From assembly GCA_030407315.1 (NCBI GenBank), contig JALQPE010000613.1:62001-126000 (forward strand): 64,000 bases of DNA. Reading direction: 5' to 3'. A program made the translations under genes and the position numbers. Within the stretch, counting starts at the first letter, position 1; each line of letters opens with the position of its first letter. Positions 10,640-49,621 of this stretch are shown here, piece by piece. Source of the stretch: Asparagopsis taxiformis (Eukaryota > Rhodophyta > Florideophyceae > Bonnemaisoniales > Bonnemaisoniaceae). The notes under the pieces are model-generated. The model did no database searches. It was not told the DNA's origin and was given only the letters and a program-made list of their open reading frames with translations.

Positions 10640-10643
10640 AGCC

Positions 10644-25490: not shown

Positions 25491-25621
25491 ACATCCAGTA
25501 TACAATATATCAGCGAAAACCGGGAGGGAAGAAATTACAGCGGATGGTAAATTCAGGGCCCATATCGGACCGTATTTTATTCTCTCATTTAGGAAACTGC
25601 TCGTATACAATACGTCTCTCT

Positions 25622-25783
25622 AGAATAGGGAATACATATCTGGTCAGAATAGGAAATAAATACCCGGTTAGAATAGGAAATACGTATCCAGCCAGAATAC
25701 GGAATATGTATCCAGTCAGAATACGGAATATGTATCCAGCCAGAATATGAAATACGTATCCAGCCGGAATACAAAATACCTGT
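25622..25783 (+). repeat. 24-bp minisatellite, about seven units
   Basis: AGAATA (or GGAATA) recurs at 25622, 25646, 25670, 25694, 25718, 25742 and 25766, exactly 24 bases apart. The unit is close to AGAATAGGAAATACGTATCC plus GCC. Because 24 is a multiple of three, every frame repeats an eight-residue peptide. I see no evidence that it is translated. Confidence 0.9.
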
Positions 25784-27230: not shown

Positions 27231-30200
27231 ATGGAATGCAAGTATGAAGGGTGCTTCTACTACTGCGTAGATGCTTATGCGCTCGCGCTGCATGAGCGAA
27301 CGTGTCGCTACCGTTTCAACCCCTCTCCCCAACATTTCAACAACGCTCGTGTCCCTGCCGTCACCGATGAGCCTGCTCGAAACGGCGACCATGATTCCCC
27401 GCAACCCAGCTCCCCAGACCCAGAATCTGGTCGTGCTTCCTCCAGCGATTCACCCTGTGACGCTCCACTGCCACCAACCTCAACCTCCTCCCGCGCAGAC
27501 CTCCTCGTGCAATCCCTCGCCGCCAGTCTCACAACCCTCGAGTACAAGGCCGGGGCTGGCCGCGTGAGCGAAGTCATCACCATCCTACAAGACCCCGCAT
27601 TCTCCCTAGAAAAGTTCAACAGCGCCGTTCGCACCGTAGAAGAATGTCGCCACGTTACCGCTTCCATGGTCGAAACACATTTCCGCACCGAAGGTTACAA
27701 GAGCCACATCATTCCAGACAAAACTGGTAAGTACTCGGCACAGCTGTACCTCCGCGACCCAGTCGACATGCTCCGCAGGCAGTTAGCACTGGCTAACGAC
27801 CAAAATACTCTCTTCCACCCCTCCCCACAGACCGCCCCAGACGGCACCGCAATATTTTCTCATCCCCTACACACAGAATTCGCGAAAACGCTGCACCAGG
27901 TTACTAGACAGCGCGTGCAGCTCTCGGAAGATCCACAGGTCGTATGGGCAGAGGAAACTGATCCCACACCTTCCTCCTTTGCCGGCCTCCTCCAAGTGTA
28001 CTCCGACAAGAGCAGCACAAGCCTCAAGAGCTCCGCAATCGTCGCATACCCCATACACGTCACACTGCTCAACTTCTCCGCCCCCTCCGTCGCCACTGCA
28101 TCCGTACCGGCCTCACCATCGTCGGGTATCTTCCGTACATTGTTAACCCTTCGTCAAACGCCTTGTTCGGTGATGAAATGCCGACAACCTCTAGTTCTGC
28201 TAGTCGCGCTCGCAAAATTGATATTCTTCATAAAGCACTCGAAAAAGTGTTTTCGTCCCTATCCACCGCGTTCTCTTCCGGGTTCCCCTGCACAGACTCC
28301 ACTGCAACTGCCCGCCAATGCTTTCCCATCCTAGCCAATTATTGCTGCGACTTTCCAGAGGCCAAAGAGCTCTCATGCACTCGCAACAGCACTACCACCA
28401 CACATCCCTGCCACCGCTGCTACATCCCCGCCACTCAACTTGAATCCACCGCGCCACACCAGCCCCGCTCCCTCGATGATACACGCTCTGCACGCCAAGA
28501 GAGCGCTCAGGAGCATACAACTGCTCCGCTCGAAGCTCTCTCCCTCCTCGAACAACACTCTGTCCTCGAATCGACCGCTCTTTTACCCACCAACAGTCCC
28601 CTAGACCCCTACAACATTTTCTCCTTCGAGCCTCTGCACAATCTCCACCTCGGCATCTCAAAGCTCATCAAACAGTGCATTGTCCACCGCCTCAGCTCCC
28701 CAGACCTCACCACCACCACTGCCTCCCATTCCGGGACACCTCGCACCTTCAAGAAGGTGAAAAAATCCATCCTCGCCGGCTCAAACAGCATTCTGTCCGC
28801 TATCGAACGCGACTACTACATCACCGGTCTTCATGTCGACTTCTCCAAGGGTGAGAAGGGCACCAATTTGAACGGCCTCTTCACGGAGGACGGCATACGC
28901 GGCATGCTCGCAGCCAAAGACTATCACCATGTCGACATGGTGTTCCCTTTCATCGCAGCATTCATTGACACATGCTGTGACGAAGTAGAGACAGCCCCCC
29001 TCACTTCCATCTGCACGCAATACTCTGACCTCGTCGCATGGGTCATGAAACGCGGTCGCATCAAGCACTGGACTGCCGCCGAACTAGAAAGCCTCCAGAA
29101 CTCCATTTCCTATTTCAAACAATCAATGCTCTCCACCCTCGGCCCATTCCACACCACAGGTCTCAAAACTTTCAAGTTCCATCTTCTAGACCATCTTCCC
29201 GGTGACTTGCAGAGATATGGCGCCCTGGAACACATCGATGCAGGCCCCTACGAACACTCGCATCTTCTGTTCAAACAGAGTTATAGGAAAACCTCTCGAA
29301 GGCGCTCCACAGCCATGGAAGAGACTATTCGCCACATGGAATTCTCCTTGGCCACTCCAACTGGTCATAACCCATCGAACACATTGGGAAACGCACGCAT
29401 GATATCGCCCACAGACGGTGCAGTACTCGTTCGCGACGGATTCACCGTTGCACTGCACGACTTTGCCTCCCTGCTGCCCGATGCAACCCTCCTCGTTGCA
29501 GATATCGACGGACAGCCCGATCCTGCCACTCTTTTGCCTCTGCACAACTCCTCGTTCCCGTCTGGCACCATAACGCTATTCCAGCAACTCGGTGACACAG
29601 CTGCACAAGCGTTCCTCACCCTCGCTAGACTGCGCGCCACGGCAGAAGGCCCTCCAATACATGACATGGACATTTCCGTCACCGTGGTAAAGTCCGCCTA
29701 CGTCATGGGAGGGTACGTCCCAGATGCCGACGACTTTGACCCGCACAGTGGCATGCTTCGCCCCACAAACGTGTCGAGGCACAAGCAGCAGCGCGTCTTT
29801 GCAACTTCATCATTCGGCCCCGCAAAGAGATCGCAGTACTCCTTTGTCGTCATCTCCGGAACTGCCGATGACTACAGAACCATATGGGTAGGGCGCGTCC
29901 TGGCACTGGTACGCCTGCAGTCTCCAAACCTGTTTCAACCTGTAGAACTCGCTTTCGTTCAGTATATGACCTGCTTTGCCCCAAAAACCGCTGTGGAAAA
30001 ATCACTTGGGTGCATTTGTTTAAAGTGGTCCACATGGGACCCGGACAACGGATCCGTTGACAGCAATGACACTGCATCCCACAGTGCAGGTGGTCCTTGG
30101 TTTGACCTCATTCCTGCATCTACTATATCTGGCACCGTGCACATCGTACGAAGTAACTTTCCAGTCAAGCCATTTACGAAACAAATGCACTGGTCGGACC

Positions 30201-30271
30201 ACCGTTTCTATCTCAACCGCTTCTACACCAACACTGATTACCAGTTCACAGATGATAATGAAGAAGAATAA
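27231..30271 (+). CDS. Plavaka-like (CACTA-related) transposase, one frame change
   Basis: The first frame starts at 27231 with a finger-like MECKYEGC...HERTC segment. Near 28095 the sensible reading moves by -1 (NFSAPSV, then RHCIRTGLTIVGYLPYIVNP) and then stays open to 30271. Further blocks: CHRCYIP; PLHNLHLGISKLIKQC, which matches the DLLHEFELGxWK block of Plavaka transposases; and RYGALEHIDAGPYEHSH followed by KQSYRKTSRR, which matches their FGTTDSYSTQxGELEH...YARTNK block. I therefore place it near Plavaka/CACTA, although catalytic residues are not assigned. It is convergent with the coiled-coil gene (78 bases between stops), a two-gene plan known for CACTA elements. The frame change could be an indel; no classical slippery heptamer is seen there. 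Confidence 0.65.
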
Positions 30272-30348
30272 ATCTAAATCGCAGCACTCTATTGATAATG
30301 TACTACATGATAAGCCTTCTAGTCAACGTCACATTTACTGCACTAATT

Positions 30349-32630
30349 TCAACCATCCTCCATTACGCCAAAACCGTTATCAGTGGCTGCATGGCGCCGC
30401 TCCATGCCCCCATACTGTGGGGCATTGATTTCGACATTCAGGTTTGCACTCAGGTGTCCAGCATATGGGTCAACGACGAAAAGTTCTGCGCCAATTAGTC
30501 CTTGCGCAATCACACAATCCATTACAGCACCGAGGTTTGACGTAATATGCGATTGAATCCAATCCTCGGACACTAGAACAAGTGATGAGCAGCGGTTTAC
30601 ATCATCAACGACATGAACAATTCCAGACCCCTCTCCGCTTTGCCACACTTCAACAGCCTCTCTCGTCACAGTACGGCTTGCAAACACATGCCGTGACTGT
30701 GCACTAGTCCGCTGTTCGCTCTCGACAACGTCCGTTTCTTCCCTTGCTTGCGAGCCTTGGAGACAAGACATGCAGTACACCACCATACCAACTAATTGCT
30801 GAAAAGCTACCCCCACATATTGACTGTACCGCCTTGTAAACTCCTTCTGCCGTGCACCTCCTTTCCCCTTCGGTTCATCCAAACACTCCACAGTAGTCAC
30901 TAGCCAAGCATCCAGGCGCGCCAGCGTTAGTATGCTCGTCTCTATGTCCATTACTTGTTCTGGTCGTATCGAATAACCCCTGAAGATGTCCAGCACATTC
31001 ACAGCTACTCGGTTGTTAAACCATGCATCACCATTCACTTCCATTTCGAAGCTGTCAGGAACCATGCCTTTGCTGTATCGCAGCTCTGAGAACGGTGCCG
31101 TTCGCCACCTCCCCATATCCAAATCACCGTTGCTTTCCCGTTTCAAAAGCTTCTCAGACGCTTCGCGCTTTTGATCCTCTCGCTCGTCCATCTCAGCTCG
31201 CGTCGTCAGCATCGTGCATCTAGACATTAATTTCGTGTACCCCAGCGAACCGAACAATCTGTCCCTCGCATTACGCTTCCGTGCACTCATCACGTCGGAC
31301 AGTTTCTGCGTCACCTTCACTTTCAATTCCTTGCTCCCCGCCACAGCCTCTTGACAGCACACACGCTGCTCCTCATCGGAAAACACATCACACCACGGAC
31401 TTTGACGCAGTACGTGTCGCACCAAGTCATTCAGCAGATCACTCTCGTCCCTGTACGAAGGTGTATACCACTGCAGATTCTTGATGATATAGCCCGGAGG
31501 GGTAGCAATATATCCTACACCGTTTTCGCTCCAAAGTGTCCCTTCTACCGGCTCTACCTCGATGGTACGTCCAGTCCAACGTCTCTGCGTTTGTTCCGCT
31601 ATAGGGTCCAGCTCCATAGTCTCGTTCTTGCACCACTTTGTCAGGTTTTCCTCAACCGCCCTAAGAACTCCAAGGTATTTCACAGGAATGGCTTTCTGTA
31701 TTTTCGACTTACCGCCACCGTGATCACTGATTCTACCTGTTCTCGCAATTGCAGTAAGGCTGGCATTTTCCGCCTGCAGAGTCTTCACCTTAGCCTCCAA
31801 CGCAACTATCTCCGTGGTGAGCGCCTTGTTTGCTATGTCCTGGCTAAACACTTTTTTTCCAGCTCCGCGATCTTCTTCTTCTGCGCATTGATGCGACTCG
31901 CCATTAAATCGATGGATTCCGGCGGATGCAACCTCTCTGCCCTCACCGTCCCCCCATCTCGCACGCTATCGGGAATATGATGTCCTCCATCGGCAATAGC
32001 CTGACGTCGCGGGGGCGTTACGCGCATATTTGGCACCAATGACAGTCTGTTGTGACGAGGCCCGCACTCCGGCTGCTCTCTCCCCTCAGTACCACCTGAC
32101 CGCCGATGATAGTTGGCATCCTGTGAACGTTGCTCAGAAACAACATCCCTTGCCGCTATCCTCGGGTCCCTGACTGCATTACCTGCTGGGGCTGATGTAC
32201 TCGGCATAGTTGGCGCAGTGGGGGTCACAGCCTCCAGTGTCTCGCGAACCCCCGGCTGGGACTCCGTCTGCAGCACCTCCGCATCTGCCAACCCGGGAGG
32301 AACTACCTTTGCCATAGCACTCTGCCGCAATTCCAACATGTTTTGAGCCACTATCATGTCATCATCATGATGTTCACTGTCCCTGCGAGCACGCTTGCCT
32401 CGGTCAAGCCCCATCTCTCTCCGCGCCGTTCCTCCTTCCTCACTTTCTCGCTGCGGATCCCCAGTTCTGCGCCGGTCCGTCTTGCGACTACCGGACCGCG
32501 GTTCAATGCTGCCGGTAGGCCCAGACCGCTTCTTCGCACGGGATTGTCGGGCACTCGATACAGCAGCTGCTGACCGGTTTTTCTGGAGGCCCGGAGGCTT
32601 TGGAGCTTTCTTCGCAATACGCGGCGGCAT
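30349..32630 (-). CDS. Coiled-coil protein made by probable -1 frameshifting (two overlapping ORFs)
   Basis: ORF1 starts at 32630 (MPPRIAKKAPKPPG; 265 codons). It is basic and low-complexity, ending in the coiled coil MASRINAQKKKIAELEKK. ORF2 (to 30349) lies in the -1 frame and overlaps it at 31833-31851. If read through, the leucine/isoleucine heptads run on without a break (KKVFSQDIANKAL, then TTEIVALEAKVKTLQ). The product would be about 765 residues. The remainder (YIIKNLQWYTPSYRD, GYSIRPEQVMDIE) is unrecognised. The position, convergent with the Plavaka-like transposase, recalls the second gene of CACTA elements (DNA-binding TnpA-type), but no sequence match supports that. Its upstream region shares a conserved stretch with the ParB-dioxygenase gene. 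Confidence 0.65.
31851..31857 (-). promoter_or_regulatory. Slippery heptamer A AAA AAG (-1 frameshift site)
   Basis: In the ORF1 frame the codons are GAA AAA AAG, giving A AAA AAG, the heptamer of bacterial dnaX and many mobile elements. Slipping back one base places GTG TTT AGC in the ORF2 frame. Directly downstream TGTTT-A-GC can pair with GC-AAACA to form a small stem. The spacer is shorter than usual. Confidence 0.6.
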
Positions 32631-32794
32631 AATGAAGCCTTCCCGGAAGCGATGGAAGGATTGAGTTGCACGAGATACAAAAAAGATTGCTGTATAGTGT
32701 CGGTAACCACAACGGTCTGCGATGAACGTTCAGGTCAGGTCAAGTACCGGAGAATACGCCAACAGCCCAGATTGTATACGGTAGGCAGTCATCA

Positions 32795-32860
32795 ACAGTA
32801 TTTAATGAGGTACAATTACAGCTGTCGAGCTAGGCCGCGAGCACCCCTATGTCCGGAAGA
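32795..32860 (-). promoter_or_regulatory. Conserved upstream stretch, copy by the coiled-coil gene
   Basis: On the minus strand, after the dyad-rich repeat ends in CAAATCAGG, the text runs CCGGACATAGGGGTGCTCGC and then CCTAGCTCGACAGCTGTAAT. Nearly the same words follow repeat copy 9 upstream of the ParB-dioxygenase gene. I infer a shared promoter or binding region. Confidence 0.5.
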
Positions 32861-33066
32861 CGTCCTGATTTGAATTAAAATTTGGGCTATTCTCAAAAAC
32901 ATGCACATGTGAACATGTTTTTGAGATGGGGGTGTGCCGTACGGCACAATCGACCGCTGAAATCGATGTTTTTTGCAATATTTTTTCTGCCCTGAATTGT
33001 AGAATTTCTGGGCTGGACAGCAATGCAACTGAGCTGGACATCCACCGGGCGTCCATTTCAACTTGG
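32840..33066 (-). repeat. Dyad-rich repeat, copy 5 (only inverted copy)
   Basis: Hairpin at 32892-32925 and exact palindrome at 32934-32947. It lies between the coiled-coil gene start and the methyltransferase gene end. Its orientation is opposite to copy 10 at 43.7 kb. Confidence 0.9.
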
Positions 33067-33288
33067 TCTTGTATTTTGCATCTGCACGCATAACAGCATC
33101 CAAGCAGTCAGGTTCACTGCTCGGACGAAGTGCACCTAGAGTGTGAACGATTGGTTTTTGACAGGTGAGTACTGCCGAATAGGTTTCACCCTGGACTAAT
33201 GGTGGCTGGACATGCTGCATTATATGATATACTTCAACTCTGGAACGTAGCTTTATTTGTAGTCGAAATGAAAACATCTTTCGTGACC

Positions 33289-36200
33289 CTAATTCCATGC
33301 TCTAAACGCTGTCCCATAATGAACGTAGAGCTCCTGCCCCGGACGGATATCGCGGATTGCACGTACTACAATGATCTTCGGATTTTCTAGGTCCTTCGCC
33401 TTGAGCTTCTTCCCCGTCGAACCGCTGCTGTAGTTCTCGACAAACTCGACGTTGGCCATCCGCCTGGTGTCTTCCGCCGGAGTGTCCTCACCTCGCAAAT
33501 ACCGCGGGTCGTTGATGAACTGCGCCGAACAGAACGGAGCCGGAACAATCCAAATTGGATGCTCGATGTTTTCGTCGTCCTCCGCTGTTGCATACAGCTT
33601 GATGGCATACATCAAGAATGTTTCCTTCGTTATCGCCATGTGACCCTCTCCGTACGCGAACCTCATCGACTCCTTGCTCATATCAGAGTACACAACAGTT
33701 CCGTAGTATGCACATACTTCGTCGCCAACATTAAATGTCTGTTCAGCGAAGAGCCCTCTTCCTGCATTTGGATGCTTAATCAGCGATGGTCGAACGCTCA
33801 ATTTTTTCGCAACACAATCGTGTGCCCGCATCACGCGAGGGTTTTCAGTTTGCAACCAGCGGCGCAGGGAAGGTGGCCAATAATGTACCGGTTTTTCCAT
33901 GTGCTCGTGCGACGCAATCGACTCTGGGCACAGCTGCCAGAGGTACTGCCGAATATATTTCGGGAACCTCTGGTACAGGGGAAGGCCAGGTGGGGGTTCG
34001 ATGATCCTGCGTTCCCTCTGTGTACGCATCGTGACAGAGGGGGACGCCAAGAACTTCTCAGCACTCTGTTTCGCTTCTGTCGTGACCCTCATGTCAGTGT
34101 TGTTTGAAAGAATTACACGTGACATGACTGCACACAGCTTTGGAAGCGATCGTGCCACACACAATTTGTCCATGTCACTGCCGACGAAAACACGGTGCTC
34201 AGGCAAGCTCATAGCTGCTTTTCCCGTTGCGAAAGTGCCAGAGAATGGATCGACAACAATATCACCAGGCTGTGAATGCTGGCTGATCAACTCCATCATG
34301 AGAGCGACGCTCTTCTGCTCTGCACGAACTCTGACCGTAGCACCGGTTGTGCTCCTTGTTCGCCACACCATCTCATTCGAATCGATGGCGGGCATATTGA
34401 TGGTGACGTTGCACCACGCCGGGTACGTGCCGTCCATGTATCCGTGGTTCCTATAGGCCACCATCTCGCTTCCAGTCTTGAACGGAACACCTCGCTTCCA
34501 GAAGTGGATAGCGACCTCTGCCATGTTCATGCGTTGGTACCTCTTCCGCCCCGGCATTTGATAGAGGTGCCCAGGTAGTCGGACAAACAACAGAGGTACC
34601 TCGTCAACGAAGAAAACTGAATTCCGAACGACGTCCTCCTCCTCCTCCTCCTCCTCCTCATCCGCACTTTCTTCGCCACTGTGCTGCGATGCTTCGGAGT
34701 CCGAATTCATGGACGTAACCTCTTCTTCATCCGACCCGTCATCACTGGCAGCAGCATCGGTTGGGCCTTCTGACTGCGGTCCTTTGTACGTTTCCAAGTA
34801 ATGGAACCATTCGTAGAACTGCAAAACGGAGCAGAACACGATGCCGTGGCCACCGGGGCGCAACAGCTCGTCAAACACTTCGATGCTAGCCTGCATATCT
34901 TCTGCAGTTAGCCTGTCGTACGAAGAGTTGGAATCGTTCCTCTTACGACGAACATTGTAGGGCGGATCAGTCAGAATGAGCTGAACGTTGCCCGTGATGG
35001 GCACGTGTTCTCGGCTCTCGTCGGCACTGACCAAATCTTCGAAAGGGACGTCGTACACCCGGCAATACTGACTCATTTTCGAAAGAAAGTCCTTTGCGAG
35101 AGCCTGCCCTTCACTTTCCTGCTCTTCTGTCGCATGGGGTGACGGTGACGGGGGAGACGGCCCTTGGGCAGTAAGACTGGTCCTCCCAGGCCCAAGTTGA
35201 AGCCTGGTTGTGTGTCTTGTCGACGGAACCAAACCTCTCCCTCCTGTGTTGCGACGAGTGGGAGTGTCATCAACCGGCTTGGGGACCTTTTCTGCGTCCG
35301 CGGCTTGTGGTGCCGGGCGGAGGACAGCCATAACGTCTTCGTCGAGGGTGTCAAAGTACGCTGGCAGCTTGTCCGGATTTCCGCTTGACAAGTATATTTC
35401 CAGCGCCCCCCAGCGGTCGGACTCCGGCCAGGTGTACAGGTCCGGGTTGACGATAAGAAACTGCAACCGGTCGAAGAACTTCCTCACAAGGTCCCTAAAT
35501 GCACTGTGCTGCGCACTGGTTCTTGTCTCTACTTTTCCACCATATCCATCAGGATGAGATAGGGGAGCTTTGTCGTGGTAGAGATCTAGCTTCTGCTCCA
35601 TCGGTGCGAATAGACCTTCATCGAGCACGTCAAACCAATGCTCACTGCTGTCGAAAATGATGTACGGCGCCATCAACTCTTCGAAGCTGGAAAACTTTGC
35701 GGCGAAGGCCACATCGGTCCAAGCATGGTATAAAACTTGAACCACGTAACAAGCTCGATTAGTGCTTTTCCGATGGGCTGGGACGCGTGCGGCTTCGTTC
35801 CCCTCTTCGGCCGCGTCGCCTATTCGGCGACGCGGCAGGTTCTTGTTGTGATTTCGGATGATAGACAACGCTTGGAAATACATCAATACCTCGAACGTTT
35901 CCGGTGGAGCAAGAACGAAGGCGCTTGGTTCCCCGCGCTGCGGCGCCTGTAGTGGCGAAGGAAGCATGTTACATCCAATAAGGAAGGTCTGCGGCACGAT
36001 CCCAGAAAGGATGCAGTGCTCAACCCATTGCCCGATACGCTCATCCTGTCTTGAAAACTCGGCAATCGGTAATGCCAGACGAACAATCTGCTTGGCTCGC
36101 TCAACGTTCATCTCTGCCATGACGATTTCGGCAACATCCGCCTCGACTCCAGCATTCTTCGAACGACCGCTGAAGGCCATGCTGAGTCGACCTTGCAGCG

Positions 36201-36486
36201 CCGCAAATTGTTCTTCCGTGCCCTGCGCAACCCAAGCGCCAAGGTCCGCGTATGTGAAACCTCCCGGCTTGTCCGTCAAGTCTGCGAAACTTGAGTGGGC
36301 GAACAAATCCAGCAAGAGGCGGAGGAAGTCTTTGCCAGCGAGAGTAGTTTCGCGGGCGGCGCGACCTACGTTTCGACGTGTACCCATGTCACTAGAATCC
36401 TCCCAAGGGCTAGCGGGTTCGCGCAGAATTGGCACGGTTGCGTCGTCAACGATCGGATTGCTGTTGCGCCTGCGCTTATTCGTCAT
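33289..36486 (-). CDS. DNA adenine/cytosine-N4 methyltransferase fused to SET domain
   Basis: Intact 1,065-codon frame. After an unrecognised N-terminal half, VQLILTDPPYN (about residue 506) is the catalytic DPPY motif of N6-adenine/N4-cytosine DNA methyltransferases. GDIVVDPFSGTFATGKAA (about 744) is the AdoMet-binding motif. This order, catalytic before AdoMet site, is that of the beta class. An acidic linker (about 575-625, with a run of eight Glu) separates them. The C terminus is a SET domain: HPNAGRGLFAEQTF (about 910), FINDPRY, where the usual NH pair reads ND, and IRPGQELYVHYGTAF (end). The protein could thus methylate DNA and perhaps histone or other protein lysines. Two perfect palindromes lie 260 bases upstream, and dyad-rich repeats lie on both sides. 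The domain calls are strong; the substrates are unknown. Confidence 0.85.
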   Translation of the reverse strand: MTNKRRRNSNPIVDDATVPILREPASPWEDSSDMGTRRNVGRAARETTLAGKDFLRLLLDLFAHSSFADLTDKPGGFTYADLGAWVAQGTEEQFAALQGRLSMAFSGRSKNAGVEADVAEIVMAEMNVERAKQIVRLALPIAEFSRQDERIGQWVEHCILSGIVPQTFLIGCNMLPSPLQAPQRGEPSAFVLAPPETFEVLMYFQALSIIRNHNKNLPRRRIGDAAEEGNEAARVPAHRKSTNRACYVVQVLYHAWTDVAFAAKFSSFEELMAPYIIFDSSEHWFDVLDEGLFAPMEQKLDLYHDKAPLSHPDGYGGKVETRTSAQHSAFRDLVRKFFDRLQFLIVNPDLYTWPESDRWGALEIYLSSGNPDKLPAYFDTLDEDVMAVLRPAPQAADAEKVPKPVDDTPTRRNTGGRGLVPSTRHTTRLQLGPGRTSLTAQGPSPPSPSPHATEEQESEGQALAKDFLSKMSQYCRVYDVPFEDLVSADESREHVPITGNVQLILTDPPYNVRRKRNDSNSSYDRLTAEDMQASIEVFDELLRPGGHGIVFCSVLQFYEWFHYLETYKGPQSEGPTDAAASDDGSDEEEVTSMNSDSEASQHSGEESADEEEEEEEEDVVRNSVFFVDEVPLLFVRLPGHLYQMPGRKRYQRMNMAEVAIHFWKRGVPFKTGSEMVAYRNHGYMDGTYPAWCNVTINMPAIDSNEMVWRTRSTTGATVRVRAEQKSVALMMELISQHSQPGDIVVDPFSGTFATGKAAMSLPEHRVFVGSDMDKLCVARSLPKLCAVMSRVILSNNTDMRVTTEAKQSAEKFLASPSVTMRTQRERRIIEPPPGLPLYQRFPKYIRQYLWQLCPESIASHEHMEKPVHYWPPSLRRWLQTENPRVMRAHDCVAKKLSVRPSLIKHPNAGRGLFAEQTFNVGDEVCAYYGTVVYSDMSKESMRFAYGEGHMAITKETFLMYAIKLYATAEDDENIEHPIWIVPAPFCSAQFINDPRYLRGEDTPAEDTRRMANVEFVENYSSGSTGKKLKAKDLENPKIIVVRAIRDIRPGQELYVHYGTAFRAWN

Positions 36487-36743
36487 AATGGAATGAGTGG
36501 AAATTCGGTACAGGATGGCGACCGCTCGGCGAGACAGTCAAATTTGACGACGTATCTCGTGACGTTTGCACTCTTTCGTGAGGAACACTGGTTGATATCG
36601 AACGGAACAGAGTATACGGGTACACAGCACTGGAAAGGTCTTGAAACCCGTAACCGGTGTAGGTAATAAGTTGTGACGGATACGTGGTAGAGAAAAATTT
36701 TAAAAAGATTGTGATTCCCTGTCTTTGAGTGTTGTACTGCACG
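36487..36743. promoter_or_regulatory. Upstream region of the methyltransferase-SET gene
   Basis: No gene. It should contain the promoter. I see no unambiguous TATA box on the minus strand. Confidence 0.3.
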
Positions 36744-36773
36744 GCCGCCATGGCGGCTGTGACTGCAGTCACA
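36744..36773. promoter_or_regulatory. Two adjoining perfect palindromes upstream of the methyltransferase-SET gene
   Basis: GCCGCCATGGCGGC (36744-36757) and TGTGACTGCAGTCACA (36758-36773) are each exact palindromes and abut without a gap. They lie about 260-290 bases before the ATG. They may be operator-like sites for a dimeric regulator, possibly self-regulation. Confidence 0.6.
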
Positions 36774-36819
36774 TAGGTTGTCACAGGTGCATCACGCTTA
36801 CCAGGTGAGCGACATCCGG

Positions 36820-37016
36820 ACGGCCACTGGACATGGGGATGTCCAGCTCAGATGCATTGCTGGCCAGACCAGAAATTCTACAATTTCGGGCAGAAAAAAT
36901 ATTGCAAAAAACATCGATTTCGGCGGTCGATTGTGCCGTACGGCACATCCCCATCTCAAAAACATGTTCACATGTGCATGTTTTTGAGAATAGCCCAAAT
37001 TTTAATTCAAATCAGG
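36820..37016 (+). repeat. Dyad-rich repeat, copy 6
   Basis: Hairpin at 36955-36988 and palindrome at 36933-36946. The first dyad is GAAATT-CTAC-AATTTC, so the loop differs but the arms do not. Confidence 0.9.
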
Positions 37017-37279
37017 ATGCAGATATTCGTCTTCTAGCATTGTCAGAACACATTCGTATAACCACATTTGGAGAACCTGAGCCCAGAGCTATCGGTTTTG
37101 GCGGGAGCTAAGCCATATCTCATATAATCAGTAACTACTTCCCGCCAGCTGAGTGGTGGAACCCCTGCTATTTCTACCAACGAGACATACGGGGTGTCAA
37201 CTCGGCAATCGTATATGATTTGGGTGCTAAATTTATTCAAGAGACGAATGGGCTTCGAAAAGGAGCCCAACAACGTCTT

Positions 37280-37610
37280 CTTGTGATCCATGGGTATAGG
37301 ACTACTCTATTCTTCTCCAGGCTTCCACCATAGCCTCCTCCACCACCTCCGTTAATGGATCGAATATCCGAACCGCACCTCAACATGCTTTTCTTCTCAT
37401 CCATGGGTACTGACATCTCACATGTTCTCCAGGCTTCCACCATAGCCTCCTCCACCTCCGTTAATGGAAAGAATATCCGAACCGGACCTGAACATGTGTT
37501 TCTTCTCATCCATGGGTACTGACATCTCACATGTTCTCAACATGTGAGATGTCAGTACCGGAGAAGTTCTCCAGGCTTCCTCCGTAGCCACCTCCTCCAC
37601 CTCCGTCTGT
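37280..37610. repeat. About 115-bp tandem repeat, three units, with a long hairpin
   Basis: The phrases CATCCATGGGTACTGACATC, CTCCAGGCTTCCACCATAGC and CTCCGTTAATGGA recur. At 37516-37558 the arms GTACTGACATCTCACATGTT and its exact inverse complement are separated by only CTC, forming a 20-bp stem. On the minus strand the repeat reads glycine-rich, but there is no stable gene frame. Confidence 0.8.
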
Positions 37611-38139
37611 GGGAATCAACACAATATCACCACTGCGTCTTACCTCACATCCACATCTCTCCGGGATGAAAACGGACGGACGACATAGGGTTTGTAGACG
37701 TTTAGAATCTTGTTAGAAAAAAGTAAACGAAAGAGAACTTCTCTTTCATTGAATGATATCTCGTCCCTGTCGCAATATGTTCCATTTTCAATTTCTCGGG
37801 TTGCACACCCATCATGGGTGATCAAGGCCTGGATCGAACCCTCCGAGGGTCTTCGATGGATAGGACAGATAGTGGAAGGCTTTTAAGCCTGTGACCAAGC
37901 GGCTATTGATTGGTTGGAGGAAGGAAATTACAGAGGAAATATAGCTGAGTACGGTGCTCGCGATAGCTGTTAGGTTAAAGTCAAATATGTTTTTCGATTA
38001 TTTTTCGTACGGAAATGCCTTGCAAAAGACGATGCTTTGTCGTTCTCCTGGAGGGAGTCCGTTGCATTGCACTCAATTCGAGAGCATCGTCATGAAGGAG
38101 AGGATTCTTTCTGCTTGTTAGAATCGGTTTAGAGCAGAT
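37611..38139. other. No gene seen
   Basis: Spacer between two repeat arrays. It contains no coding motif, and I do not recognise a tRNA in it. Confidence 0.3.
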
Positions 38140-39090
38140 AGCTAATGCATTACTGGCCAGCCCAGAAATTGTAGAATTTCGGGCAGCAAAAATATTGCAA
38201 AAAACATCGATTTGGGCGGTCGATTGTGCCGTACGGCACACCCCCATCTCAAAAACATGTTCACATGTGCATGTTTTTGAGAATAGCCCAAATTTTAATT
38301 CAAATCAGGTGTCTAATTTGGCCACAACGGCCCCAGGAACCGGCCGCCGCCCCGAGTGGGGTTGTCACTGGCTTCTGTAAGCACTAACTGTAAGGCTAAA
38401 TGGCGTCTGACGAAGGGTCAATTTCAGGCTCAATACGCCAGGGACAGGTCTTGGTCCTTGTTCCATCATGGTCCCACCCCACTCTCTCACGACCAACCTG
38501 AAATGGACGTCCGGTGGATGTCCAGCTCGATTGCACTGCTGGCCAGCCCAGAAATTGTAATATTTCGGGCACAAAAAAATTGTAAAAAATCAACGATTTG
38601 GGCGGGTCGATTGTGCCATACGGCACACCCCCATCTCAAAAACATGTTCACATGTGCATGTTTTTGAGAATAGCCCAAATTTTAATTCAAATCATGGTGT
38701 CTAATTTGGCCAGAACGGCCCCAGGCACCGGCCGCCGCCCCGAGTGGGGTTGTCACTGGCTTCTGTAAGCACTAACTGTAAGGCTAAATGGCGTCTGACG
38801 AAGGGTCAATTTCAGGCTCAATACGCCAGGGACAGGTCTTGGTCCTTGTTCCATCATGGTCCCACCCCACTCTCTCACGACCAACCTGAAATGGACGTCC
38901 GGTGGATGTCCAGCTCGATTGCACTGCTGGCCAGCCCAGAAATTCTAAAATTTCGGGCACAAAAAAATTGTAAAAAATCAACGATTTGGGCGGGTCGATT
39001 GTGCCGTACGGCACACCCCCATCTCAAAAACATGTTCACATGTGCATGTTTTTGAGAATAGCCCAAATTTTAACTCAAATCAGGGTGTTC
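38140..39090 (+). repeat. Tandem array of a 388-bp unit carrying dyad-rich repeats 7-9
   Basis: Hairpins at 38248-38281, 38635-38668 and 39023-39056 are 387 and 388 bases apart, and the sequence between them is nearly identical. Each unit contains GGCC-ACAAC-GGCC (or near), GTGGGGTTGTCACTGG, CTGTAAG twice, and the AACCTGAAATGGACGTCCGG start of the next copy. The exact 14-bp palindrome is at 38226-38239 and 39001-39014; copy 8 has one change. The first dyad varies in its loop (GTAG in copy 7, CTAA in copy 9). The array lies just before the ParB-dioxygenase gene. Confidence 0.9.
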
Positions 39091-39163
39091 CCCGGATAAA
39101 GGGGTGCTCGCAGCCGCCCCAAAAGCCGCCTAGCTTGACAGCTGTAATTTTAACACATTACAC
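39085..39163 (+). promoter_or_regulatory. Conserved upstream stretch, copy by the ParB-dioxygenase gene
   Basis: After repeat copy 9 the text reads CCGGATAAAGGGGTGCTCGC and, after a short insert, CCTAGCTTGACAGCTGTAAT. It matches the stretch upstream of the coiled-coil gene. It ends about 265 bases before the ATG at 39427. Confidence 0.5.
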
Positions 39164-39426
39164 ATCAAGGACACTGCCTGCTTCACGCCACCTCGTCAGG
39201 TTTCGAGAGCCGACTCGGGCCCGTTCCGAACGGACACTCACATCTCGATTGCCTCTCTTGCATTCCAGCGGTCACGATAGGTGTGTACCTAACAAAATTT
39301 CGGTTGTATTGTGTTATTATTTCCAGCGATTGGCGTTCACGACCATTCTTCAACGTGAAACATACCATCCACATCACTCCAATACGTCAACGTCAACCAT
39401 CTCTTTTCCTTTCCAACTCAACAACC

Positions 39427-42400
39427 ATGGCGGATACGCATTTCAGCAGTTTGTTTTCAACGGTTTGCGGCGATCAAGTGAGCGCGTCAGCGGAGTCGCG
39501 CGGACTCAAGCGCGGCGTCGATGTCAATTTGTTTGCGGACGTGGACGGTGCGGCTGTGCATATTGGGACGGCTTCGGTGAGCACTGCTGGTGGCGATGTT
39601 GGCCTTCCGCGCACGCTGCACAACCACAAGCTGCCGGAAACCGACGAGGCGGACTATATCGTCGTGCGCAACATTGCGACTAAGGACAAGTTCAAGGACC
39701 TCCCGTTCCCGTACATGTTTGATGGCGCCGAGGGACCGCCGGAGACGATGGGTGGAGCATACGCCGCGGCGTTTTACCCTTGGGATACTCGGATGATGCG
39801 CCCCGCTGCGGAGGATGGCCCTAGCGACATTCGTACCCCTGCTGCAGCGTCAAACTTCAACGCAGCGACGAACCAGGCCAGCTCGGGACGGATGCCCAGT
39901 ACCGGTCCGGCAGGCGAAATCACTGGTTCGGGGGGTACGAAGCATCCAGCACGCTCCATTCCGGTTTCGGGAGGCACGAAGCGCCCTGCTCGCTCTGCCA
40001 GAGCCTCCAGTGGAGGCACGAAGCACCCTGCTCGCTCCAACGTCACCGAAGCTACTACGCAGGACGTAACCGAGGTGGACGACGAACCGGAGGTGGTGGA
40101 AAGCATTCGTGAGCAGCAGGGGACGCAAATTACGGTGCCCAAGTTTGTGACGTCGGATTACGTCGGAGAAGGAGCGACTGTGTTGGTGAGGCAGCTAGTG
40201 GAACCGGCCGTGACCCTTCGGGATGTGAAAGAAGACCACGTGGAGGACCTGCGCAACAATATGTTGGCTGTGGGGTATGTGAGCTCTTCGCGTATCACTG
40301 TGACGGTGCTGAGGTCGCAGAACACGCATCTGCCCGCCGACACGCGTCTGTTCCAGAATGGCAAATTCCATGCCAATGCGAACGTGACCGTGATCGACGG
40401 ACTGCATCGTCTCAATGCTATGCATAGCATTGCCGATGACTTCACGCGCCTCACCCGTATGCACAGAACCAAGCTGCCACAGGACGCAAACCGCTTGCGC
40501 TGGGTTACTCAGCCTCTGGATGTGTACTACCTTCGCCGCAAGGACGACAGTGATCTTCAGCCTCATGAGATCATCCACAAGAGTGCAGAGTCGAACCATA
40601 CGACTGGGACGCAACTGACGGAGCGCTCCCTGGTTCGAATCTTGTCGTCCATCCAGCAGTTCATCCGTACGATTGCTGTTGCAAATAACGTGGAAAACGC
40701 TGGCGACTTGCGTGAGTCTGATGTCATCCGAACATTGTTCGAGGCGCAGTTCATGGGGATGATGAATTCAACGAACACGGCCCGGCGGTGGACGCGTTTG
40801 GCTATAGCAACGCTGAAGCATCCTGTTCTCGACGAAGTGTTGCGTGAGCTGAACAATTCCGAGCGCCGCAACGAGATTGGGATAACGCACCTGGACCACA
40901 AGATAGTGCGCGAGTTGCTGGAAGAAAACTTTGTCTTCGTCTTGCGTGGTCTTTCGGAGTACTTGAACCCTGCTCATGGTGGACGTCCGGATGGACGCTT
41001 TGACGTGAACGACTTCTATACATACGTCCGTCGCGTGACTGCAATAGCAAATTCTCTGTACGCTGCGTTTGGGCGCCCAAAGAGTATTATGCGCAAGTCA
41101 TTTCTGAGCACAGAGATGGCAATTGGGTCGGTTAAGCAGCCGAAGGAGTTGCAATGGCATCTCACCAATGCCATTGCAATGTATAGAGGGGACGACCGGA
41201 GCAGTGAGGTTCGAATGCGACGGAGAACCACGCGTTTACAGGATTTGGAAACGAACTTGAAAGAGTTTTTCAATCCGACATTGAAGAAGAAGACTAAGGC
41301 TCGACGCAAACGCCGCCCTTCTGCTGCCAATGTGAGACTCACTCACAAGAAGCAGCGGAATGTCGAACATGAGCCTGCTTCGCATGGCATCCGCCGCCGT
41401 TCACAGCGACTTCGCTCGACGGGGAGCACACGCCTCGAGGAAGAAGAGCCGGTTGTGGTACAACAATCCGCCGGGGAAGAAGAGCAGGCCGTTGTTGATA
41501 AACCCACCGATCAACAACAAGCCACTGCTTCCGGTGATGAGGTTGACGAAGACTCCGCCCGTTCCCCCGATTCTGCCGTTGAGATTGTCCCCCAAGATAA
41601 CCAACGTGCTGGTGCGACTCCCTCCAACCAAGAATCTGTCCATAACGTTTCGGACGAGGAAGAAAACAACAGTGCAGACGAGGGCCAAGTCGAAAGCAAG
41701 GGGGTCCGCGAAGTGACAATTACACTCACTGTTCCGGAAGGAGTCGAAGTCGATGAAGACGGTTACATCGTTCGTGACTCTCCTTCTGAACACGACCTCC
41801 TGTTCGACGACCGTATGCCATCTCTTCCCGACGATTTCGAAGTCAAAGACCGAGCCGAAGGGCATCATCTGGCGCAGCGTCCCGCGGACGTCATCGCATC
41901 GGTGAGGGTTGGCTGTCTGCCCCCGATTGAGCTCAGGTTGTTATTGGAGAGTGTGGAAATCGATGAGGAGGGCAGAGAGGTGAGGTATTTGAAGCAAGTG
42001 GCGATGGACCCTGTGTTTGAGGGGCTGCATATTCCGGAACAACATCGGGCTCGTCATCTTGTTTTCGAGATCGACACCATCTATCCGATGTTTTTCGCAG
42101 CGTGGAAGATGGCTGCCAAGGCGATGTGTGAGCCTACATCGACGTTTCTACCCTCGAGGCTGGACTTCGCTCAGGTTGCGCGAATGTCTACAAGCTGGAA
42201 GGATTCGTATGAGGCCGGCACTGGTATGGCGTACTTCCACAATTGCCGAACGGAAATCAACGAGCGAGGGTATACGGTGATGCACAATTTCGCGGATGTA
42301 AGCTACCTCGATGCGTCGGACAAGTTCCCATTTGACTTGGGTCTCATGGAAGAAATTCCTAACCAGGAATTGTTTCGGTACTTCTTGGGAACATGGGAGG

Positions 42401-43362
42401 GGGAGGAGGTGCACAAGGACCCTGGGAACCGGCAGCTGTGGAGTCCCATTGTCAATACGGGGGACGATGAAACAGATGAGAAGAACCGGAATGAGGGGAG
42501 GGCTCGCTTCACGTCTACGCGCCACTGCCTGGTTGACTATGCCGAGAACGATGAGACGCATATCGACCGGTTCAAGTTTGTGACGCGGCGAGCCCTGCTG
42601 GATGTGTGGTTGGGAATCCTTGTCCGGCTGATAGGGCTGGAGGAGTGCGGTTTACCGGGAGAAAAACTTGTCATGCCGGCATCTGGGGGACGGTTTTTGA
42701 TAACGGGAAAGGGGTGTCCTCGGCAGGTCCCACACAATGATTTCCCTGTTCCTCCTCGCGACCGCAAAGATCAACTTCCGGGTTACTTTGTTATTGCCAA
42801 CGGAGATGACCCATTCCCTATCTGGGTGTGTCCAGGGTCCCACAAGTACGTCTTTTCCAAAGCGCTGGAATTAGATATGTACGCCAAGACGATGAAGCTG
42901 AAGAAGGTAATCGTTCCGCCACGTTCAGTCTTCATCGGTCACGGCCATGTACAACATGCCGGGGCAGGGCATGTCGACAGAGTTGTGTCACACACGACAA
43001 CGAGGTATCACACGTATTTCAGGAATGCGTCGTATCCGATTCCCGACAATGTTTCGTTTGGTTTCATCAGGCGGTTGGGATTCGAAGAAGAAGTAATCGC
43101 CAATGCTCCGCGCCGGTCTGCCAGGCAAAGTCAACCGGCACCTGTCAATGTTCGCCACAAGACAGTTGTTCCCATCCCGGTCAAGAAAGATCGTAGGCCG
43201 AAGACAGGGCAGCTCGGAATGATGCGGATGAAGACGACAGAACGCAAGCCAGAACGCAAGCCTATATCCTACACAATTAGTGATGTCCCGTTCATGCCTA
43301 TTCTGCCGGGAGATCCTGATTATGATGAGGACGAAGACGAAGAACAATTTTCCGACGGCTAG
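39427..43362 (+). CDS. ParB-like domain fused to 2-oxoglutarate/Fe(II) dioxygenase-like domain
   Basis: Intact frame; I choose the ATG at 39427 (context ACCATGG), giving 1,311 residues, although the frame is open further upstream. Residues about 168-205 hold three basic repeats of GGTK(H/R)PARS. The ParB-like domain follows, with VTVIDGLHRLNAMHS near residue 320. A basic KKTKARRKRR segment (about 622) suggests nuclear import, followed by a long acidic region. The C-terminal third has PHNDFPV (H-x-D, about 1102), WVCPGSHKYVF, and GHGHVQHAGAG (distal His, about 1175) with a later RYHTYFR. This is the iron-binding triad and likely oxoglutarate Arg of a double-stranded beta-helix dioxygenase. TET/JBP-type DNA oxygenases or other nucleic-acid or protein hydroxylases are possible; I cannot tell which. 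It is divergent from the methyltransferase-SET gene. Confidence 0.75.
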   Translation: MADTHFSSLFSTVCGDQVSASAESRGLKRGVDVNLFADVDGAAVHIGTASVSTAGGDVGLPRTLHNHKLPETDEADYIVVRNIATKDKFKDLPFPYMFDGAEGPPETMGGAYAAAFYPWDTRMMRPAAEDGPSDIRTPAAASNFNAATNQASSGRMPSTGPAGEITGSGGTKHPARSIPVSGGTKRPARSARASSGGTKHPARSNVTEATTQDVTEVDDEPEVVESIREQQGTQITVPKFVTSDYVGEGATVLVRQLVEPAVTLRDVKEDHVEDLRNNMLAVGYVSSSRITVTVLRSQNTHLPADTRLFQNGKFHANANVTVIDGLHRLNAMHSIADDFTRLTRMHRTKLPQDANRLRWVTQPLDVYYLRRKDDSDLQPHEIIHKSAESNHTTGTQLTERSLVRILSSIQQFIRTIAVANNVENAGDLRESDVIRTLFEAQFMGMMNSTNTARRWTRLAIATLKHPVLDEVLRELNNSERRNEIGITHLDHKIVRELLEENFVFVLRGLSEYLNPAHGGRPDGRFDVNDFYTYVRRVTAIANSLYAAFGRPKSIMRKSFLSTEMAIGSVKQPKELQWHLTNAIAMYRGDDRSSEVRMRRRTTRLQDLETNLKEFFNPTLKKKTKARRKRRPSAANVRLTHKKQRNVEHEPASHGIRRRSQRLRSTGSTRLEEEEPVVVQQSAGEEEQAVVDKPTDQQQATASGDEVDEDSARSPDSAVEIVPQDNQRAGATPSNQESVHNVSDEEENNSADEGQVESKGVREVTITLTVPEGVEVDEDGYIVRDSPSEHDLLFDDRMPSLPDDFEVKDRAEGHHLAQRPADVIASVRVGCLPPIELRLLLESVEIDEEGREVRYLKQVAMDPVFEGLHIPEQHRARHLVFEIDTIYPMFFAAWKMAAKAMCEPTSTFLPSRLDFAQVARMSTSWKDSYEAGTGMAYFHNCRTEINERGYTVMHNFADVSYLDASDKFPFDLGLMEEIPNQELFRYFLGTWEGEEVHKDPGNRQLWSPIVNTGDDETDEKNRNEGRARFTSTRHCLVDYAENDETHIDRFKFVTRRALLDVWLGILVRLIGLEECGLPGEKLVMPASGGRFLITGKGCPRQVPHNDFPVPPRDRKDQLPGYFVIANGDDPFPIWVCPGSHKYVFSKALELDMYAKTMKLKKVIVPPRSVFIGHGHVQHAGAGHVDRVVSHTTTRYHTYFRNASYPIPDNVSFGFIRRLGFEEEVIANAPRRSARQSQPAPVNVRHKTVVPIPVKKDRRPKTGQLGMMRMKTTERKPERKPISYTISDVPFMPILPGDPDYDEDEDEEQFSDG

Positions 43363-43631
43363 ATAGCTTAACAACAACTACTTTAGGAAACAATTATCGA
43401 GAATATAATCATCTCCTTTATCACTTTCAATCTATGAACCTACTATAATGTACTTCCGTTCCATGCTTTCAAACTAGATTGTCCATTCCCTCGTGGGTTG
43501 GAGCATGATTTCCAGGACGATTCCCTCACATCTCTAGACTCGATGGTCTATGCTAGAAATAGCAGAACAATTGGGTTTGTATGTGCTTCATCGCCTACTT
43601 GCTTCCGGTAATGGGTGGACGTGCACGATAT
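43363..43631. other. 3' flank of the ParB-dioxygenase gene
   Basis: Short A/T-rich spacer with no gene. It leads into repeat copy 10. Confidence 0.3.
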
Positions 43632-43870
43632 CAACCTGAAATGGACGTCCGGTGGATGTCCAGCTCAGATGCATTGCTGGCCAGCCCAGAAATTCTACAA
43701 TTTCGGGCACAAAAAAATATTGCAAAAAACATCGATTTGGACGGGTCGATTGTGCCGTACGGCACACCCCTATCTCAAAAACATGTTCACATGTGCATGT
43801 TTTTGAGAGTAGCCCAAATTTTAATTCAAATCAAGGTGTCTAATTTGGCCACAACGGCCCCAGGAACCGG
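43632..43870 (+). repeat. Dyad-rich repeat, copy 10
   Basis: Hairpin at 43774-43807 and exact palindrome at 43752-43765. The first dyad has a CTAC loop. It begins the second copy of the 2.1-kb repeat. Confidence 0.9.
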
Positions 43871-45743
43871 CCGCCGCCCCGAGTGGGGTTGTCACTGGCT
43901 TCTGTAAGCACCAACTGTAAGGCTAAATGGGGCCTAACGATGGGTCGATTTCAGGCTCAACACGTCAGGGACAGGTCTTGGTTCTTGTTTCATCATGGTC
44001 CCGCCCCACTCTCTCACGACCAACCTGAAATGGACGTCCGGTGGATGTCCAGCTCGATTGCATTGCTGGCCAGCCCAGAAATTCTAAATTTTCCGAAAAA
44101 TCAATTTGGTGGCCCAGCATCTCCTGTGCCGAAAATTCCCGCACTCACTTCTGATATACGTCTAGACGTGTTTCGCACTTGTACGCATCAGGGAAGGCGT
44201 CACGGAAGGTTGAGACTACGCTACTTGTGTACCGCGTCGTCTGAAATAGCGAGTAGTGTTTGTTGTATAGCCTATACAACTGAGTTGTGGAGTATGCGTC
44301 TAGTGGTTTGTAAAGCTTGCAGAATGGGATAGGGATGTGGGTGGCCCTATTTTATGAGTACATGAGTACCAATATTCAGGGTTGACAAAGCGGAAAGTCA
44401 TAGGCTCGTACATGTTTGAGATTGCATAGTGGAGAAAATATTTACATCGAAATTTACATGGAGGAGATGGAGGTTTTAAGGATGAGGTATGAGAGGAAGA
44501 AAATTCTTCTGTGGTATGAGGATGTGTTCTGTGGAGGGATGCAATCTTGGGATGGTACAGGGGGAGGTGGAAATGTACGGAGTGCGGGTTTAGAATGGAG
44601 TGTGATTCGGAGAGGAGTGCCGACAAGCATATTATGGGGATTGGGGAGACGCTGCGGGGTGTTGGGGTAGTGAGGGCGGAGGAGGTGTTTAGGTGGGACC
44701 GTAGGAGGGTGCGGTTGAAGGCCCGAGAGGAGGGGGTTTTAGGAAAGTGAGGAGAAAGAGGGGGAGGGGGTGGCGTCTGTTCTGGCTGTGGTGAGTGGGG
44801 ATGTGATGGAGAAGAAGGGGGTTATTGTATTTGGGGAGGGAGGGGAGTGGGAGGAAGGGTGCGAAGTGGGGGGTTGATATGTGTTTCAGAGCGGGGAGGT
44901 TTCTGGGGAGACGGCGGGGGAGCGGGAGCGTGGGCCGGTGGTGGTGGTGTATACGGTATCGAAGATGCGGATGGCGTGGGGGCATGGAGCAGCTGAGGGA
45001 GGGAGGGGTGGAGCAGGTCGGGTACGGGATGGGGAGTGAGAGGTTTTCGAAGAGTAAGCTGCAGGGGAAGTTTGTGGAGAGGGCGAAGGAGAGGGGTTGA
45101 AGGTAGAGGAGAGAGGGTATTGAAGAACAATACGTTGCAAAGGTGATGGGGAAGACCATGGTCGAGGAGATAGGGGGTGTTTTTGCCCTATTCTGAGGTA
45201 TTATGAGGACTGGTTATACGAAATCTGTACGGTAGAGCAGAACAGTAGGTATGGAATGGAGGTGTGCACCGTGGAAGCGGGGATAGGTAGCTGAAAATGC
45301 GTGCTAGAGTGGTATTGGGGGTGTTTGAGGTACAGTACGGGGGAGGTGAGCACCAACTGGAAAGGGGTGTGAGCGAGAGGATGAAAAAATTAAAGACAAA
45401 ATTGGAGTCGACCGACAAGGAAAAATAGAGTGGTCGCCGTGATGGATGCGGACATCCATGTCGAGCACGGCGGCAGAAATTTCTGGGGTCGAAATTTTTG
45501 AATTTCTGAACCGGCGCCCGTCCTAGGTGGACATAGACATGGCGGAAGTCCTTCCCGAGGGGGACATCCGTGGTACTAGAAACAATGAATGTCGCCCTAG
45601 TAATACTAGACGTACTAGACCGCATGGACGTCCGGTTCTAGGCGGACATCCAAAAATACTGGAGAACATGGACGTCCGCCTAGTAATACTAGGTGTACTA
45701 GAGGTTGTGGACGTCAGCGTCCATTTCCGAGAACACAGACGAA
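43632..45743 (+). mobile_element. 2.1-kb dispersed repeat, copy B
   Basis: Direct-orientation copy of 13031-15121 with scattered substitutions and small indels. The differences include frame-changing ones near 44538 and 44680-44770, which argues against coding. It has the same palindrome-rich right end, with CCTAGTAATACTAGG and GGACGT motifs. Confidence 0.7.
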
Positions 45744-49619: not shown

Positions 49620-49621
49620 TA

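Follow-up and report, generated by a model that had tools for sequence, protein, structure and literature searches.

Do the four long genes that lie together in one stretch of the red alga Asparagopsis taxiformis belong to a single mobile element, and what might the putative chromatin-modifying enzymes among their products do for it? The stretch (64,000 nucleotides, contig JALQPE010000613.1, positions 62,001 to 126,000, C613:62001-126000; hereafter the window) encodes a transposase, a coiled-coil protein, a DNA methyltransferase-SET fusion and an oxygenase-like protein. We find that window positions 25323-45741 are very probably one copy of a young, high-copy transposon of ~20 kb, of the Plavaka type and bounded by terminal inverted repeats, that holds all four genes. 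The original prediction had joined these genes into one mobile unit at 27231..43870 and reported that terminal repeats were not found. The genes do lie at about those places, and the single unit is borne out by ends that the copies have in common, by terminal inverted repeats with 2-bp target duplications, and by co-occurrence of the genes across the genome; the element is, however, larger than proposed, and 34-bp terminal inverted repeats exist at 25323 and 45741.

Common ends and target-site duplications define the element

The element is 20,419 bp long and its termini read CGTCTGTG...CACAGACG. Of three other copies (C113, C348 and C474) examined with their flanks, each has the left end and two have the right end, which is also present at a second site in the window. 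We assessed 13 end pairs, namely those of the window, C113 and C474 together with ten pairs from contigs up to C100, and found a perfect 2-bp flank duplication in eight (window AA, C113 TC, C12 AA, C20 AT, C49 GA, C52 TA, C90 TT and C14 TG), for which P is ~2e-7 at 1 in 16 per pair. These eight comprise two four-gene elements (the window and C52, the latter with all four gene markers in 20,044 bp), one three-gene element (C113) and five elements of 10-12 kb without marker genes; a further element with four markers, on C88, spans 20,774 bp and has no duplication. Terminal repeats and target duplications at different genomic places rule out segmental duplication or chance clustering of the four genes. 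The features of the window copy are as follows.

25321..25322, strand not applicable: left target-site duplication, AA
25323..45741, + strand: whole transposon; left end common to the C113, C348 and C474 copies, right end to C113, C474 and window 15119
25323..25356, + strand: left terminal inverted repeat, 34 bp; matching ends were counted genome-wide
25598..25789, + strand: left subterminal array of 24-bp repeats (family D3)
27231..30271, + strand: Plavaka transposase gene; frame broken in the window copy, Pfam match in the second of two pieces
30349..32630, - strand: coiled-coil protein gene; two overlapping frames in the window copy, one 794-codon open frame in the L016 copy
32803..33072, - strand: repeat with the palindrome, ahead of the coiled-coil gene and in the opposite orientation to the other copies (I2-I11)
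33289..36486, - strand: methyltransferase-SET fusion, 1065 aa, intact
33313..33762, - strand: SET domain (residues 909-1058), PF00856, E 1e-6, above cut-off
34165..34986, - strand: N6_N4_Mtase domain (residues 501-774), PF01555, E 2.9e-15; DPPY ahead of the S-adenosylmethionine (AdoMet) motif
36837..37017, + strand: repeat copy upstream of the methyltransferase-SET fusion
38145..39084, + strand: repeat in three tandem copies (period ~388 bp) ahead of the oxygenase-like gene (D1, D2)
39427..43362, + strand: intact gene for the 1311-aa oxygenase-like protein; a ParB-like motif at 40390-40413 has no profile support
42046..43116, + strand: oxygenase-like domain; invariant H (42733), D (42739), H (42955) and R (43003)
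43632..44113, + strand: repeat copies downstream of the oxygenase-like gene (D1, D4), at 43671-43835 and, partial, at 44021-44093
44114..45741, + strand: right subterminal region without recognised gene, also present in C113 and C474 and at the second right end (15119)
45708..45741, - strand: 34-bp right terminal inverted repeat; 31/34 positions match the left repeat in the window copy
45742..45743, strand not applicable: right target-site duplication, AA

Copy number, co-occurrence and structural variants

Across the repeat-rich genome assembly (141.5 Mb in 3,156 contigs), a 24-base pattern from the ends occurs at 2,739 sites (1,355 + 1,384, at most one mismatch), against 0 for the reversed control. 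Markers of 30 bases, allowing at most two mismatches, occur at 1,006 sites for the Plavaka transposase, 981 for the coiled-coil gene, 971 for the methyltransferase-SET fusion and 906 for the oxygenase-like gene, each with a control count of 0. At full length all marker copies would total ~20 Mb; many are not full length, so the share of the genome is lower.

We compared with the window 10 kb around each of 20 SET copies picked for long open frames, a sample biased towards intact copies. Sixteen of them align, 98-99% identical, on one line that runs from ~30,070 and reaches at least 37,015; the L022 copy stops matching near 32,560, and in the remaining three (L024, L027 and L028) the fusion segment is inverted between its flanking inverted repeats. 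The region concerned is window 32863-37017, with flanking inverted repeats of 181 bp, and among the 71 listed fusion sites with a coiled-coil marker no more than 12 kb away, 8 show the inverted arrangement.

Co-occurrence was assessed among the exact matches listed on contigs up to C283 (93 fusion, 73 oxygenase-like, 99 Plavaka and 93 coiled-coil sites); as inexact matches are excluded, partners may be missed, and as inverted copies can also count as misses, the figures for sites with enough contig on the relevant side are lower bounds. Within 12 kb of the 93 listed fusion sites lie a coiled-coil site in 71 cases, a Plavaka site in 55 and an oxygenase-like site in 35; all three partners are present at 23 and none at 16. 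The coiled-coil marker stands 3.5-4.3 kb downstream on the same strand at 73/99 listed Plavaka sites. Where a listed site has enough contig on the relevant side, fusion sites are accompanied by Plavaka in 25/38 cases and by the coiled-coil gene in 28/38, and Plavaka sites by the coiled-coil gene in 15/24. It is thus not the case that the enzyme genes stand without the transposase or the repeats in all other copies, and the one-unit inference stands.

Four of the ten complete end pairs on contigs up to C100 enclose marker genes: elements of 20.0 and 20.8 kb hold all four markers, and elements of 15.6 and 27.2 kb hold three, the oxygenase-like marker being absent. A class of 10-12 kb with the same ends and no exact marker genes is found on C11, C12, C14, C20, C49 and C90; the 7.5 kb that we read of one of these (L056, C14:6200-13700) contains no open reading frame (ORF) longer than 132 aa, and shows the left subterminal region and inverted right-hand repeats. 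The marker-less elements are apparently a non-autonomous class.

The window itself holds a second copy or variant at 8000-15121: a right terminal repeat is present at 15119, and 2.1 kb belonging to the right end are 94% identical to 43632-45743; no left end for it was found in the window. To the left of the 15119 end lies an aldehyde dehydrogenase fragment (8534-9001, - strand, Pfam E 5e-28), which may have been captured.

The transposase and the coiled-coil protein

The window transposase matches PF18759 (E 6.6e-15), bearing out the Plavaka-like label it had been given. Genome-wide, all 123 matches scored, out of 1,208 candidates, lie above the cut-off for this family (best E 2.6e-24); most of the 123 span profile positions 39-318 of 325, and 80 keep an open frame of at least 1000 aa. 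The Plavaka assignment is thus well supported by profile similarity. An intact, intronless transposase ORF of 1012-1013 aa is present in the C474 and C348 copies, and the C474 copy has full-length ORFs for the transposase (1012 aa), the fusion (1067 aa) and the oxygenase-like protein (1318 aa). The coiled-coil gene is present where it had been predicted, and its product gives weak profile matches of the coiled-coil type. Each of the four genes is a single uninterrupted ORF in at least one copy.

The methyltransferase-SET fusion

The fusion protein scores 57.3 bits against a cut-off of 26.7 for PF01555, and 29.6 bits against 22.4 for PF00856, the latter over the full profile (1-105). Its motifs TDPPYN at 506 and DPFSGT at 746 place DPPY before the AdoMet motif, the permuted (beta) order. 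In 21 copies (the window and the 20 picked for long frames), DPPY and four SET motifs are kept in all 21 and the AdoMet motif in 20. NHSC is the canonical SET active-site motif; at its position the protein reads IND, and NVEF and YG are kept in 21/21 copies. A beta-type N6/N4 amino-methyltransferase fused to a SET domain is therefore a well-supported reading of the protein sequence, and the fusion proposed in the original prediction is upheld by both Pfam matches and by purifying selection (below). The permuted order has been described for bacterial and bdelloid enzymes (PMC8885841).

Matches in the PDB are short, to DpnA-type and CcrM adenine methyltransferases (E 4e-8 and 0.002), and sequence does not separate N6-methyladenine (6mA) from N4-methylcytosine (4mC) as the predicted product. 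The phage methyltransferase profile phrog_67 matches with E 4.9e-17, phage methyltransferase matches being likewise short, and no viral contig matched the protein. Among 8,000 candidates scored, the only relative was one protein, 99% identical. A Pfam scan of the fusion found no chromodomain.

The oxygenase-like protein

An HxD...H iron triad followed by an arginine that binds 2-oxoglutarate (2OG) is the signature of 2OG-Fe(II) oxygenases. Relatives of the oxygenase-like domain comprise one near-identical protein and four distant ones, and HxD...H...R is invariant in the window protein and the four distant relatives (34-44% identity). Neither the ORF nor its domain has a relevant Pfam or PDB match, and structure models (pLDDT 31 and 35) were too poor for fold comparison. 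By motif only, the 1311-aa protein is a putative 2OG-Fe(II) oxygenase; the dioxygenase label of the original prediction thus keeps its motif pattern and gains no relevant profile or structure match. For the full protein, no relatives were found among 8,000 candidates scored, nor any match in viral contigs, and the best 35 candidates scored in the genome are 98-99% identical, most without a stop.

Two further identities considered for this protein are not supported. The ParB part of the supposed fusion goes back to one motif seen by eye, VIDGLHRLNAM; there is no family match up to E 10 in Pfam, PHROGs or NCBIfam, and no ParB chain among the PDB matches. A TET/JBP-type relationship finds no Pfam match in the ORF or domain, and Tet_JBP (PF12851) has no match in the genome up to E 0.1, a search in which no control genome exceeded the cut-off either and which could miss genes split by introns.

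Age of the copies and selection on the genes

Over window 30068-36860, 17 copies (window included) differ pairwise by 0.04-1.5%, with a median of 0.59%; judged by this near-identity, the copies are a young burst. Among 21 copies of the fusion gene we counted 43 synonymous and 45 non-synonymous changes, a ratio of non-synonymous to synonymous polymorphism (pN/pS) of 0.35 (p = 1.5e-6). Without transition weighting, the corresponding figures are 43 to 44 and 0.30, with 0.07 (12 to 3) in the SET region. For the oxygenase-like gene, three copies (the window, C474 and most of C348, where the frame is broken) give 26 to 28 and a pN/pS of 0.38 (p = 4e-4), and its first 208 codons in 15 copies give 11 to 7 (p = 0.002). 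By these counts the fusion and oxygenase-like genes are under purifying selection.

A palindromic repeat upstream of three genes

The structured repeat reported in every gap around the fusion and oxygenase-like genes was found in each gap named. The repeat, which has the core TCTCAAAAACATG-N10-CATGTTTTTGAGA, precedes the coiled-coil, fusion and oxygenase-like genes, at ~230-350 bp from their starts, and recurs downstream of the last of these; in front of the coiled-coil gene it occupies 32863-33043 (- strand). The 36-bp core has 8,234 genome copies at no more than three mismatches, against 0 for the control, and the non-coding C14 element carries three core copies per side in opposite orientation.

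We measured conservation over 107 repeat sites from the window and the fetched loci; the sites were chosen by likeness to the 36-bp core (at most eight substitutions), so that some conservation is built in. The core is exact in 94 sites, has one change in ten and more in only three, amounting to 99.4% conservation, while the 90-bp flanks average 77% and 67%. As ~24 bp on the left side of the core and ~18 bp on its right side are also 92-98% conserved, the conserved block extends to ~80 bp including the palindrome, with conservation of 0.92-1.00 against ~0.45-0.9 further out. This conservation suggests that the block is a functional site. The shared stretch noted upstream of the coiled-coil and dioxygenase genes is real, as an inverted match of 32803-33072 to 39160-38876 (82-93% in pieces), but consists mostly of the palindrome repeat, with only ~36 bp outside it (32803-32838 and 39125-39160).

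Host DNA-methylation context

No match to the C5 methyltransferase family (PF00145) was found genome-wide, in a search that intron-split genes could escape and whose control was positive in 10 of 14 genomes, those ten prokaryotic; the same search method found SET genes in the genome unlike that of the transposon. CpG observed/expected in the element is 0.97, not depleted, and the C-to-T rate is 0.022 at CpG against 0.018 elsewhere, with no clear sign of 5-methylcytosine (5mC). Because no C5 methyltransferase was detected, CpG is not depleted and C-to-T change is hardly raised at CpG, escape from 5mC is unlikely as the purpose of the element, and self-marking by an amino-methyl mark is favoured; a DNA mark, if there is any, would be the element's own and not a counter to 5mC. 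GATC is not enriched, with 38 occurrences in the 20.4-kb element against 52 in 14 kb of right flank.

Weighing the explanations

Several observations weigh against the one-unit reading or complicate it. The transposase and coiled-coil frames are broken in the window copy, although intact copies of both exist elsewhere; the three oxygenase-like copies contain two changes that create stops; and the first 265 codons of the coiled-coil gene in 19 copies (6 to 20, pN/pS 1.23) show no purifying selection. SET catalysis is uncertain because the NHSC motif reads IND, and a frame of at least 1,060 codons is kept in only 65 of the 140 listed fusion-type SET matches (150 of 1,661 candidates were scored). 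No duplication flanks five of the 13 end pairs (those of C11, the 15.6-kb element of C12, C67, C88 and C474), and six of the ten complete end pairs, of 10-12 kb, hold none of the four markers. Among listed sites with enough contig on the relevant side, fusion sites have an oxygenase-like partner in 14/28 cases, oxygenase-like sites a fusion partner in 16/31 and Plavaka sites a fusion partner in 14/24. At about a quarter to a half of the sampled sites, a partner that would be expected is thus absent; rearrangement, nesting, truncation or divergence may account for this.

As to how the element might work, its DDE-type transposase would very probably move it by cut-and-paste with a 2-bp target duplication. 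By analogy with the accessory protein TnpA, the coiled-coil protein may bind the subterminal or palindromic repeats, a role we hold at somewhat less than even. Acting on the chromatin of the element itself, the fusion would place an amino-methyl mark (6mA or 4mC) on DNA and, via SET, methylate lysine; that both predicted domains are active is an evenly balanced proposition. The palindrome repeat upstream of three genes could serve as a common control site. Overall, we suggest tentatively, the element might mark itself so that its copies stay expressible or so that the moment of transposition is set, and the oxygenase-like protein might act as an eraser; the title of PMC12695648 claims that 6mA can accompany permissive chromatin in eukaryotes. 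A stronger version, a two-layer chromatin code in which the fusion writes both marks and the oxygenase-like protein removes one, acting from palindromic nucleation repeats in a host without detectable 5mC machinery, is improbable; if true, this genome would have gained a new epigenetic system through about a thousand mobile copies.

The same enzymes could instead impose self-restraint, copy number being limited by silencing marks (DNA amino-methylation coupled to a heterochromatic lysine mark) that the fusion writes on its own copies. Purifying selection on the fusion agrees with this, as does the fact that N4CMT, the closest eukaryotic enzyme of the type found, acts in silencing and marks bdelloid transposons (PMC8885841); but ~1,000 marker copies, of which the 17 compared are nearly identical, do not suggest effective restraint, the fusion shows no chromodomain in the Pfam scan, and we consider this explanation rather unlikely. 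Methylation might also mark old strands after replication, so that the transposase or coiled-coil protein senses hemimethylated ends and transposition is timed accordingly, SET having a separate role or none. Dam methylation times Tn10 transposition through hemimethylated ends in this way, and the element offers an amino-methyltransferase with a conserved DPPY as well as palindromic and subterminal repeats as candidate sites; GATC, however, is not enriched, and such timing seems doubtful.

It is equally doubtful that the enzymes are passive cargo, that is, host or bacterial genes hitchhiking without a role in the life of the element. The C113 copy without an oxygenase-like gene and the 15.6-kb C12 element without its exact marker speak for it, and imply that this gene is not strictly needed in cis, whereas marker numbers near 1:1:1:1 and purifying selection on both enzyme genes speak against it. 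We regard as very improbable a giant-virus or phage origin, in which the fusion and oxygenase-like genes would belong to an endogenous viral element beside Plavaka, like the giant repeats of Amoebidium. That genome does have Plavaka-flanked giant repeats and viral methyltransferases (PMC11244446), and the phrog_67 profile matches the fusion; but the genes lie inside transposon ends with target duplications, neither protein matches a viral contig, and a Pfam scan of the element's long ORFs, made without a dedicated search for viral markers, found no capsid or packaging gene.

Other features of the window

Outside the transposon, a 1.6-kb element at window 48049-49622 has terminal inverted repeats of 213 bp, which are 99% complementary, and carries what by eye is a Tc1/mariner-like transposase in two ORFs. 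Pieces of a RecQ-type helicase adjoin an ORF with an OrsD domain at 15568-21655; ORFs at 22398-23642 resemble by eye a Penelope-like reverse transcriptase, with no Pfam reverse transcriptase match; and an 829-aa ORF with DUF7869 (E 4.5e-51) at 2357-4846 is possibly another transposase.

Relation to known systems and significance

Fungal Plavaka transposons make 2-bp (or 2-3 bp) target duplications, and some families carry a DNA-modifying dioxygenase (Kojima 2025, PMC12730594); the window element resembles them in its Plavaka transposase, as identified by Pfam, and in its 2-bp duplications. Its termini, CGTCTGTG..CACAGACG, differ from the TGT..ACA of PlavakaA and the CATCA..TGATG of PlavakaB and so place it in neither subgroup described there, and where the TET-positive fungal elements of that paper have a TET/JBP domain, none was found here, the window element having instead a methyltransferase-SET fusion and a different oxygenase-like protein. 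The same source mentions in one sentence HarbingerS and MuDR elements of Phytophthora, likewise DNA transposons with a SET methyltransferase, which belong to other transposase superfamilies; that sentence names no DNA methyltransferase. Amoebidium Plavaka giant repeats (PMC11244446) are similar in being very large units with intron-poor genes and a Plavaka transposase in a eukaryote genome; they reach up to 50 kb and have many tyrosine recombinases, and the terms 'SET domain' and 'ParB' are absent from the main text of that paper.

As in bdelloid N4CMT (PMC8885841), a permuted (beta) bacterial-type N6_N4_Mtase is joined to a chromatin domain in a host without a canonical C5 methyltransferase, none having been detected in the present genome. 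N4CMT is a host gene whose chromodomain is a reader, whereas the window enzyme is transposon-borne, is joined to SET, a writer, and is present at ~1,000 sites. SymbioLINE-Dnmt and SymbioDIRS-Dnmt3 (PMC5890265) are likewise mobile elements with their own DNA methyltransferase; unlike the window element, they are retrotransposons with a C5 enzyme, and 'SET domain' is absent from the main text of that paper, which also mentions DIRS elements with adenine methyltransferases. In the open-licence PubMed Central (PMC) literature we found no report of a methyltransferase-SET fusion in a transposon.

Cases are known in which a transposon has taken up a DNA methyltransferase, a SET gene or a TET/JBP oxygenase; the window element, young and high in copy number, combines a methyltransferase-SET fusion and an oxygenase-like protein within defined ends. 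It is a transposon-borne parallel to bdelloid N4CMT in a host without a detected C5 methyltransferase, and it makes transposon-installed epigenetic marks directly testable in one organism.

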